64,000 nucleotides of DNA from Ilex aquifolium (taxonomy: Eukaryota > Streptophyta > Magnoliopsida > Aquifoliales > Aquifoliaceae), in contig OX637395.1 in the NCBI GenBank assembly GCA_951799425.1, forward strand, positions 2,270,001-2,334,000. The letters are read 5' to 3'. Position 1 is the first letter of the stretch. Each line of letters starts with the position of its first letter. A program made the position numbers and the translations under genes. The notes under the pieces are model-generated. The model saw only the letters and a list, made by a program, of their open reading frames with translations, searched no databases and was not told the origin of the DNA. This document shows positions 39,172-44,688 of the stretch, in pieces.

Positions 39172-40650
39172 AAACATATCTGCATAAAGAGTGTCCTTGT
39201 AAATTAATTAAATATTTTTGCGAATTAGAAGCGAAATGAAGGGTTCAGCCAAGGTGCATGTGTAACACTTTAACTCAGTTTTACTGGAAGCGATTTATTT
39301 GAGAATTCCAATCTTACCATTTTATTTTTTCGCCTGAGTTGCTGCCTGCTTGTTTATTGGGGTTTTAAGTTACTTTGTATTGGTAGAACTAAGGATAAAA
39401 TGCGATGAATATCATTGTGTAAGCCTCTTGGATCCTCCTGTCTATGTAATGTATTATGTTGTGTTCTTGTACCATTTAAGTCGTGTTGTGTTAAAATTTG
39501 TTTAATCAATACTCGATTTATAGCTCCAATCTATTTATAGTTATAGTCGGAACTGTGTTGTTGATGAGCCATGGGCCGTGATTTGTTAGGTTTGTGTTAT
39601 GTTTAGTCGCTTCTCTTAAATAACTTGAACTTGACCCGTGGTAGTACACAGTCTATCCCTCAGATTTTACGCCAAGAATAGATCCACAGTTGAAGGTTCA
39701 CATATTTTCCTCTACTTTGTGCATTGATTATGGTCTAGTTTGTAACACATCATGAGTTGCTTGAAAACAAAAGTAAGATTTTTTTCTCCAATCCACTGAG
39801 AGGTAGATAGTTGTTCTCAATGATGATGAAAATCTTGGGAAATTTCCTTAAGTGAATTGACTACTGTTCTTGATGGCTACTCTTGATGGCAAAGGTATGC
39901 TAAGTGCACACAATTTGCAAATAATGCCCCATGCTTCTTATCTTTAATCAACCCAATAATGATGGCCACGTTTAATTTTTAAGCCCAAATAGGAGCCAGG
40001 GTGGAGGTAACTGCTGCCCCTGCCCCTGCCCCTGAATAAGTTACAAAAAAATTCTTAAAATTTATAGAATATTTGTTACGCGTAACTATATTGATCTTGA
40101 TCTCTTCGGACTATATTAAGAGGACAAAAATAACATACCAACCACGCTTAACTTGTATAGGTCATTAGTATCCGATTCACCTTCCCTGTTGTTTTGTCCC
40201 CTCCAATTCACTAAAAATCAGGTTTTAGTACCCTCTAGAGGAGATGACAAGTTCTTGTCTTGATCTCTAAATTGTTCTTCCAATTGGTTTTGAGAAGTAA
40301 GACCCCGATCAAGGAACCAACCTTACCTGTTCATTTCTCATGATATTGACGTGACATAACTAAAATTGTTAGATGATTAGCGAAATCTAGTGAGATTATT
40401 AATCTAACATGTTGACATCGAGCTAATACTTCCATTAGTTTTTGAGGAATTTTCTTCACTTTGACTCTCCATACGACCAAACTCTTAAACATATAATCAA
40501 GTTTCAAAATTTTAAGGCTGAAAAAGAATGATACACAGAGTCGTTTTTGGCAGTTTGCTCCAAAAAGGAATGTAACTCACGTAACACTATCGTGGCCCCT
40601 TAAAATCTGCCACAACTGAACCTCAACACACCAACCTCTTCCCCTTCAAA

Positions 40651-40660
<10 letters not shown>
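39172..40660. other. ZFWD 3' region and intergenic DNA
   Basis: 3' flanking sequence of ZFWD followed by plain intergenic DNA. A short CTGCCC repeat lies at 40011-40034. No gene was seen. Confidence 0.5.

Positions 40661-40663
<3 letters not shown>

Positions 40664-40694
<31 letters not shown>
40664..40694 (+). repeat. CT microsatellite abutting the ancestral LysM start codon
   Basis: A C-run passes into a CT dinucleotide run that ends exactly at the ATG at 40695. The paralogous pseudogene has the same arrangement (44351-44389), so the tract is probably an inherited leader element. Confidence 0.85.
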
Positions 40695-40696
<2 letters not shown>

Positions 40697-40725
40697 GGCT
40701 TCCAAACCCACAAAAAGGCCAATTA
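40695..40725 (+). pseudogene. Detached 5' coding end of the LysM gene
   Basis: The ATG after the CT tract opens a frame MASKPTKRPI whose last codon is interrupted at TTA (40723-40725), where a transposon begins. Continuing from the base after the second TTA (42999) keeps the same frame (T-T-S-I-S) and enters the intact LysM frame at 43013. The two parts are best read as one gene split by insertion. Confidence 0.75.
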
Positions 40726-42995
40726 GAGCATCTCCAACCACACTCAGCAAAGTAGCTACCCAAAATATATTTAAATATTCAATTCACTACTTTAGCTAGC
40801 AACTTTTTAAAATTCACTCCAACCACGCTCTCTATTTTAGCTAACTACTTCAACTAACTTTAACTAACTTTCAATAATATAATTCAAAAATGCCACGTGG
40901 CATAACACGTAAGCGCCATAATGATGACGTGTCGTGCCATGTCATCAAATTTTAAATTTTAAATTTTAAATTTTAAAATTTTCTAACGGTAATTTGGATT
41001 GTTCAAGTACTGCTGCAAAAACATTGCCTTCTTTAAATAACAACTTCTGTAGAAAACAGTAAGCCTAGGAAAAGAAAAGAAAATAAAATTGTTTCAAATA
41101 TGCTTTAGAAAGGCACAAGCTCAAGCATTGGAAACCCTTACCTGCTTAACTAGCTTATGATTGCTTTAGTCACATATTAATAAGCATGAGAAGAAATGAC
41201 AAAAGATAAAGATTTCCACATATAGTAAACAAGGATAGCCCATGGAAACTAGAGCTGGAAGAACACTTTCCCTTTGCAAAGAGGGCTATCCAAATTATAG
41301 TTTTGCTTCTCCTTATATGATGAAAGACAAAATGGAAAGATCCATTCCAGTAACAAGTCCAAATTCTCAACAAAATGTAATTAACATCTCAATCAATGTT
41401 CTCAATAAGTGATGTAATATATTGTGATAAAACATCCAATAATAGGTCCAAGGTCTCAATAATCTGTTGGACGACATTCATATGTAATTGAGCAAAGAAC
41501 AAAACAGGATCTTATAAAAGAATTAAGGAGCAATGCGAGCATTGGGCAAAATTTTAGCAAAAAAGGCCAATTCCAATGAACTTGCTATATAAATATCAGA
41601 AAATTAAACTAGTGGACTTATTTTTCTCTTATCTTAGGATACTAAACACATCCATCAAGTTAAGAGCTTCACCAGACATTCCATTAAAGACACGAAGATT
41701 AATCCAGAAAAATGCAGCCACAAAAACAATTTACATATTCTTTTTTTTTTTTTTTTTGGGTTCAACGGTCTAGGGGTGTCCGAGCGAGGTTACGCGCCCT
41801 TCGACTAATCTCCAACAATTTACATATTCCCCTCTAAAAGGGTATAAACTCAACTGGTGCCCTGGACTGAGTTAAATTGGGCTACCAAGGTGTGGGTGTC
41901 TTCCAATCTCATCATATTGGGTTTTGCATAAGAAGAAGAAAGATGACAAAGGTTCGAATTTCTTTCTCATACTTAAATCTTATGTGTTCAATGATAACTT
42001 GCAAAAAACCAAGACAGAAATAACCAGTAACTCTGCTTATTACAAGGAGGTCTTTCTTTTCTTGTGCAGGGGTACCAAGTGTTCTTGATATAACTATCAT
42101 CACTCCATATGAAACTCAAGTTATACTAAAGGTACTGAATTGATTCTTTAGTAAGAGGACCTGAACTTTGTGGAAATACTAATTTTGCATCATATAAACT
42201 ATGTAATTAACGTGAATCTATGGTAATGAAGGGTATCTCAACTGACAAGATCCTTGATGTAAAGAGGCTACTAGCTGCCCATGTTCAAACATGCCATCTT
42301 ATACAAACTATTCTTTATCCCATGAGGTAAGTTATAATTATGCACATAACTCCAAGTTCCCTTTAAACATGCTGGTGTATCAGTTGTAGGAATTTCACCT
42401 TTCTATCAAACATATAAGGTCCATAGTTCACACACCCATGTTTTCAACACATCTCAGAAAATACATATCTCATTGAGGCAATACATCAAACATATTGTGA
42501 ATAATGAAAAGAAACACATCTCAAACAATTGGGTAGAAATGCACTCGATTGACCAAAAAATTGAGCAGAAACACATCTCAAAATATTGAGCAAAAATTGA
42601 GCAGGAGATGAGAATACCAACTCAATTTAAGCCCTTTGTTTGGTTCCCGAAAAAAGCAGAGAAGAAGCAAAGAAACATGTTTTCTTTCATTTTCTCTCTA
42701 CTGCCCAGCAACCAAATGGAAAGCCAAAAACAGAGATTAGAAACCCATCTTTGAAACTTCAATACCTGATCTGGCTAGGATGAAGGAGGAAATGGAAGGA
42801 ACCAATTTGTCGTTGTGCAGAAATGGAGGGAAGGCAGCAACTGGCGAGCTGGTAAACCCTCACCAGATCTAGCTAGCAGGATAGCCCTCAGCTATTTGGC
42901 GAGCTGGAATAGCTAGGGCGTTGGAGCTGGGATTTGGAATTTTGCTCGCTAAAATGGTGTAGAGGCAGCAATTGGCGAGGGCGTTGGAGTTGCTC
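40726..42995. mobile_element. Harbinger-like element, 2270 bp, inserted in the LysM gene
   Basis: The left end GAGCATCTCCAACCACACTC and the reversed right end GAGCAACTCCAACGCCCTCG are inverted repeats flanked by TTA (40723-40725 and 42996-42998), the TWA target of PIF/Harbinger elements. Subterminal words (ACTCCAACCACGCTC, ATTTTAGC) recur inside both ends. No transposase frame was found, so it is non-autonomous or carries unrelated filler. A family-A SINE tail lies inside at about 41740-41812. Confidence 0.75.
41740..41812 (-). mobile_element. Family-A SINE 3' fragment
   Basis: A T-run then GGGTTCAACGGTCTAGGGGTG and TTACGCGCCCTTCGACTAATC match the reversed tail of the copies at 640 and 12585. 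The tRNA-like head is missing. Confidence 0.65.
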
Positions 42996-43012
42996 TTACA
43001 ACCTCCATATCC

Positions 43013-43321
43013 ATGGCTGATGTAGCTTCATGGTACTGTGCTATTGCCCTTGTGTCCCTCATCTTCTTGAGCTCTTTCAGGGAAGAGTATTTCCTCACAT
43101 ATGAGCCTTTCAGAGGGAATTATAAGCAGCTGGTAAACCGAGCCTGTGACGAAATCTACATCGTCGGAGAAGGAGAAACTCTTCACACCATAAGTGACAA
43201 GTGTGGTGACCCTTTTATAGTTGAGCAGAACCCTCATATTCATGACCCTGATGATGTTTTTCCTGGCCTTGTTATCAAGATCACCCCTTCAAAGTCCACC
43301 AAGTTTTATGCACTATCTTGA
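43013..43321 (+). CDS. Small single-LysM membrane or secreted protein (5'-truncated by a transposon)
   Basis: The surviving frame gives 102 aa: a hydrophobic segment (WYCAIALVSLIFLSSF, residues 7-22) that is a signal anchor or signal peptide, a short linker, then one LysM domain at about residues 47-92 (DEIYIVGEGETLHTISDKC, QNPHIHDPDDVFPGLVIKI). LysM domains bind N-acetylglucosamine polymers such as chitin or peptidoglycan. Plants have a group of about 100-residue single-LysM proteins of unknown function, and Arabidopsis AT4G25433 is the one I recall. The start at 43013 is the first ATG left in frame. The original start is probably 40695, cut off by the 2.27 kb element. No TATA box is evident just upstream of 43013, so expression is in doubt. 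Confidence 0.75.
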   Translation: MADVASWYCAIALVSLIFLSSFREEYFLTYEPFRGNYKQLVNRACDEIYIVGEGETLHTISDKCGDPFIVEQNPHIHDPDDVFPGLVIKITPSKSTKFYALS

Positions 43322-44391: not shown

Positions 44392-44636
44392 GGCCTCTTT
44401 TTGGCTTATTTAGGAGGAGAATATGTATTGATTGTCTCAGAGCATGTGATGAAACTTGTTAGGGAAGGAGAAAGTCTTGAGTCAATATCACAGAAAAGTG
44501 TGGCAGCCCATTTATAAGGGAGAATAACCCTCATATCAATGGTCTAGATGAAATGTTCCCTGGTGTGATTCGCAACATTTTTCCAACCATTGTTCCACTT
44601 CCACCCAGCATGTCTAGGAAGTTTTTGAAGCAATGA
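44390..44636 (+). pseudogene. Decayed LysM-protein paralogue
   Basis: The ATG follows a CT dinucleotide run (44351-44389) as in the intact gene, but the frame stops at codon 8 (MASFWLI-stop). A second frame then encodes LVREGESLESISQK. After a one-base shift near 44495, the rest of the LysM domain follows (CGSPFIRENNPHINGLDEMF) and reaches a stop at 44636. The membrane segment is lost. It lies 1.07 kb after the LysM gene, so it arose by tandem duplication. Confidence 0.8.
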
Positions 44637-44688
44637 GTTGTATGTTATTGTTAGTAGAATTTTACAACTAGGTTTGGTTCACTGACAT

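Follow-up and report, generated by a model that had tools for sequence, protein, structure and literature searches.

The question raised by this locus is whether a short LysM reading frame is complete as it stands or is the larger part of a gene that a mobile element has cut in two, and what such a gene could still do. The window is the whole stretch of 64,000 nucleotides of Ilex aquifolium DNA that was analysed (C5:2270001-2334000), and the genome searched comprises 800 Mb in 103 contigs. Our best explanation of the structure and its origin, to which we give a probability of about 0.9, is that a young Pack-type PIF/Harbinger element was inserted at a TTA within codons 10-11 of a gene that has one exon and codes for a small LysM protein.

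The split LysM gene

On the forward strand a CT run lies directly 5' of an ATG at 40695. The stretch 40599..40694 presumably contains the former core promoter of the LysM gene and its CT-rich 5' leader; the leader is read directly from the sequence, and the TATA-like TTAAAA would suit a promoter role. Codons 1-10 (MASKPTKRPI) and the first base of codon 11 follow at 40695..40725 on the same strand, with the left TTA (40723-40725) included, and both the MAS start and the length of this head are common to paralogues. The right TTA (42996-42998) and the rest of the gene occupy 42996..43321, also on the forward strand, where an ATG at 43013 opens an ORF of 102 codons. The two TTA copies flank an insert of 2270 bp. 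Joined with a single TTA, the flanks form one frame of 117 codons that passes into the ATG at 43013 and ends at 43321. The split and the 3-bp duplication are therefore plain in the DNA itself, and all the positions and lengths proposed by the sequence-only reading of this locus hold, from the CT leader to the shared frame.

The 43013 ORF contains a LysM domain (PF01476), which scored 23.5 bits against a cut-off of 20.9 in a single-protein Pfam search. The gene is absent from the 23 places listed by a genome-wide PF01476 search at E 0.001. A PDB search with the protein gave an unrelated protein as the best match (E 0.23), and SafA, which we take to be a LysM protein, appeared at E 0.45. The earlier description of the product as receptor-like is not supported by the ORF itself, which encodes a protein of about 100 residues with a single LysM domain, one hydrophobic stretch (YCAIALVSLIFLSSF) and no kinase.

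A protein search of the genome with the 102-residue ORF gave eight matches, namely the window itself, five intact paralogues (L010-L014; 59-74% identity) and two copies with internal stops. In each of the five the frame is unbroken from its own ATG through the LysM domain. A motif reading WYC, replaced by RYY in L012 and by WHC in L013, is found at residue 22 of the joined gene; in the paralogues it is at residues 22, 22, 23, 16 and 16. Three of the five begin with MAS and have the motif at residue 22-23, and a CT-rich leader stands just before the ATG in L010, L011 and L012 and not in L013 or L014. The last two have a shorter head, showing that such heads occur in this family, and carry a methionine at the position equal to 43013, yet their start codon is upstream of it. 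The sequence-only reading had named two findings that would speak against a split gene, orthologues starting at the 43013 methionine and a conserved intron with GT-AG borders at this position; both were looked for among the paralogues, where all five start upstream and none has such an intron. The upstream starts, together with the matching motif residue and leaders, indicate that the ATG at 40695 is very probably the ancestral start and the 117-codon frame the ancestral one. The paralogues are distant from the window gene (dS 1.2 or more where computable, and beyond computation for several pairs). For the three of five pairs in which it could be computed, dN/dS of the LysM part is 0.04-0.09.

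The inserted element

The insert, at 40726..42995 on the forward strand, is a non-autonomous element of Pack type derived from the PIF/Harbinger superfamily. Read inward, its ends are GAGCATCTCCAAC and GAGCAACTCCAAC, identical at 12 of 13 positions, so that the element opens with GAGCATCTCCAAC and closes with the complement of GAGCAACTCCAAC. A 3-bp TWA target duplication is a trait of PIF/Harbinger elements. In the genome as a whole, TWA followed by GAGCATCTCCAAC occurs 1446 times (734+712), against a single occurrence (0+1) of the reversed-pattern control.

The element belongs to a family. A genome search with it yielded 1495 first-look candidates, of which 40 were scored. Among the other copies listed, TTA or TAA abuts every 5' boundary (27 of 27) and every 3' boundary (14 of 14); as some loci overlap, these boundaries represent 24 and 11 distinct places, and the window itself (L017) was skipped. 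In the nine copies that could be read at both ends, the flanking triplets agree within each copy. The 5' end of the window element is 99-100% identical over 236-243 bp to four copies (L029, L030, L031 and L033), and its 3' terminal inverted repeat differs by one substitution from the 14 other 3' ends listed. The window element thus shares its terminal inverted repeats with the family, as well as the TWA duplication.

The assignment to PIF/Harbinger rests further on a relative with the same ends that encodes proteins of its own. This 6.6-kb copy on C2 (L077, C2:10896183-10902815), found by pairing two end matches, is bordered by TAA on both sides. Its 5' end matches the 5' end of the window element (40726..40978, forward strand) at 96.8% over 253 bp, and its 3' end matches the 3' end (42371..42995, forward strand) at 97.6% over 626 columns; the two ends alone match, and the ORF region does not. 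Its ORFs match Plant_tran (PF04827; 1.7e-16 and 7.5e-38), DDE_Tnp_4 (PF13359; 2.5e-6) and NAM-associated (PF14303; 1.5e-17), so that a DDE transposase and a second ORF of Myb/NAM type occur in one element, as in PIF/Harbinger elements generally. The proposal of a Harbinger-like element is in this way supported by the TTA on both sides, the family-shared ends and the coding relative on C2. A transposase from a relative such as this one would have moved the window element in trans. The C2 copy may itself be defective and inactive, since its transposase is spread over two separate ORFs about 2 kb apart. The gap between them is perhaps due to a nested insertion. The second ORF is read from the other strand.

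A search from the transposase side gave a different picture. Of 932 candidates for PF13359, 150 were scored and 30 taken as loci, and at none of the 30 was TWA with the terminal inverted repeat found within 1.5 kb. Two of these loci, L047 and L051, gave three weak matches in all, to inner parts of the element ends. This result makes it harder to tie the element to most of the DDE_Tnp_4 copies in the genome.

Captured sequence

Between its ends the element holds two internal blocks that are shared with other places in the genome. Block A (40975..41933, forward strand; element 250-1208) is also found at C15:30460635-30461592, as one block with 97.6% identity over 961 aligned columns. It contains a short repeat with a poly-A tail at 41741..41813 on the minus strand, bounded by 16-bp direct repeats (41725-41740 and 41814-41829), which is SINE-like. 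In the cargo copy search, which scored 40 of 127 candidates, the repeat was seen at 28 of the genome places listed at 80-86% identity, and 28 of the 42 listed rows match the repeat only. As the C15 place has the repeat too, it was probably carried along with block A.

We also considered whether the C15 block could be a Yippee gene, as an ORF beside it (MGRLFVITLEGNIYS...) presumably resembles Yippee exon 1. This idea was rejected, as PF03226 matched four other places, none of them on C15, and the 32-residue piece had no Pfam match. The ORF adjoining the block lies at L019 2606-2700 on the minus strand and reads MGRLFVITLEGNIYSCTYCQTHLALYEDLISR; its Yippee-like look was not confirmed by PF03226.

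Block B (41928..42366; element 1203-1641) lies on the forward strand, in sense to the LysM gene. It corresponds to part of a CLU-type gene, of which it has the final portion of exon 1, exons 2-3 and introns, and is 95.2% identical to C20:18859270-18859697. The exons as read at the C20 place match CLU_N (PF15044, E 1.6e-6), and the place is the beginning of a CLU-type gene; the window exons, which are shorter, matched no Pfam family by themselves. Four further places match block B at 74-79%, as members of a gene family would. Because inferred introns are included in the block, its template was DNA and not RNA. Its exon 3 has two extra bases relative to the donor, which shift the frame.

Blocks A and B overlap by ATAAGA, a microhomology of 6 bp. 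At the C15 (L019) and C20 (L026) places the internal blocks alone match, and no element ends were found in the 1.5-kb flanks examined. Capture probably went from C15 and C20 into the element. Fragments of a host gene within an element that has terminal inverted repeats and no transposase of its own are what defines a Pack-type element.

Spread and age of the insertion

Copies on C9, C19, C5 and C1 carry parts of the CLU block, so the loaded element has multiplied. Two of the copies (L020 508-2494, C19:17223851-17225837, and L021 508-2494, C5:41252442-41254428) are identical over 1987 bp and have different flanks, which points to recent movement. These two hold 340 bp of the CLU block of the window and, in addition, about 700 bp of internal sequence without assigned origin.

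The window copy is itself young. Substitutions private to it number 1 in 730 sites in block A, 0 in 403 in block B, 4 in 624 in the 3' end and 0 in 236 in the 5' end, giving 5 in 1993, a composite from which gap columns are left out and for which the comparison copies, picked by length and completeness, differ by stretch. When the 3' end is compared with the C2 relative and the C12 copy, the private changes are 6 in 622 rather than 4 in 624. Plant substitution rates are 5e-9 to 1.5e-8 per site per year, and the insertion would date to roughly 0.2-0.5 million years ago. This estimate is nearer an upper bound, since some private changes may predate the insertion. The recent insertion suggested by the sequence-only reading is therefore well supported, and with the paralogues, the conserved target duplication and inverted repeats and the transposase-encoding relative all in agreement, so is its central proposal that one gene of 117 codons was split by a Harbinger-like element.

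Consequences for the LysM gene

Three fates had been proposed for the split gene: dead, restarted at 43013, or transcribed with the element as leader or intron. We consider it likely that this is a null allele or one with strongly reduced expression. Transcription begun at the old promoter would now continue into the element, and translation from 40695 would end where this ORF now stops, after 34 codons, so that the LysM ORF would not be delivered. The interval 40695-43013 contains 44 ATGs inclusive, 43 of them ahead of 43013.

A promoter swap, in which the 43013 ORF is expressed from a start in the 3' end of the element as a functional, N-terminally shortened protein, is an unlikely outcome that still deserves consideration. 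A transcript begun within the last stretch of the element could yield a near-complete protein, minus 15 N-terminal residues, and the 102-codon ORF retains both the hydrophobic stretch and the LysM domain. The short heads of L013 and L014, with their methionine at the equivalent position, would agree with this, as would the low dN/dS of the LysM part. These ratios, however, describe mostly the time before the insertion, and in so young a copy an intact ORF is no evidence of retained function. Furthermore, the second ORF of the C2 relative is on the opposite strand, and a promoter there, if any, would point away from the LysM gene.

The disrupted allele might also be reversible, since PMC4561436 reports precise repair of mPing excision sites. 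The locus could then act as a live switch: in some plants the young, mobile element would bring splice-competent CLU exons into the LysM transcription unit and so give rise to a chimeric transcript, whereas in others precise excision at the TTA would restore an intact LysM gene. We regard this as quite improbable.

Of the three proposed fates the intron is the weakest, and that the element serves as or adds an intron or leader from which LysM protein is still made by splicing is highly improbable. The captured CLU exons do bring splice signals in sense, with an acceptor ending at 42069 (10 of 11 pyrimidines) and a donor at 42327 (8/9), and further acceptors in the element lie at 42708 (9/11 pyrimidines) and 42820 (8/11). 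A donor at 40752 and an acceptor at 42964 are in phase by arithmetic, and PMC8903248 reports that a Pack-PIF element contributes an exon in maize. Against this, the sole GT in the first ORF matches the donor consensus at 6 of 9 positions, no AG beyond the final in-frame stop (42950) has more than 4 of 11 pyrimidines, and no good in-frame pair of splice sites emerged from this crude count of consensus matches; nor does any of the five paralogues have an intron here. Finally, that 43013 was always the start of the LysM gene, and the upstream ATG and ten codons a matter of chance, is scarcely credible. The methionine of L013 and L014 would allow it, but all five paralogues begin upstream, the motif falls on residue 22 in two of them as in the joined gene, and three have CT-rich leaders.

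Comparison with known systems

The nearest parallel known to us from these sources is in maize. PMC8903248 covers a survey of gene capture by Harbinger-PIF elements in maize and rice, and describes Zm-Pack-PIF-686, which supplies an exon of the gene model Zm00001d036443. Like it, the window element is of Harbinger type, carries host DNA and is inserted in a gene. It differs in genome and in cargo (CLU-type exons and the C15 block), and, whereas the maize element as described there gives an exon to a gene model, the window element breaks a coding exon and is known from DNA alone. The family of the window element resembles PIF/Harbinger elements and MITEs of the Tourist type, mPing among them (PMC2836001, PMC4561436), in its very many non-autonomous copies, and its C2 relative does so in having a transposase ORF and a second ORF. 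The 3-bp TWA duplication is a further likeness to the superfamily. The locus is thus an ordinary but clear case of natural gene disruption, a Pack-PIF insertion having already been described in maize. It documents, outside maize, a recently active Pack-Harbinger lineage that captured CLU-type exons and spread them again.

For the gene itself, the sequence-only reading had proposed a link to AT4G25433 and similar proteins. According to PMC8121149, AT3G52790, AT4G25433 and AT5G62150 are the closest homologues of three flax receptor-protein-type lectins and have unknown functions. Like the window protein, they are small LysM proteins. For a LysM gene of such a type, this disruption, which is clean, young and perhaps polymorphic, could be of use as a natural allele.

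A second LysM copy lies in tandem downstream. This relic, at 44392..44640 on the forward strand with an approximate end, has its own CT leader and an ATG at 44392, and its protein match at 44436-44588 holds one TGA and one TAG. The leader of the window LysM gene aligns weakly to the leader before 44392. Both copies of the tandem LysM pair, the split gene and the relic, are damaged.
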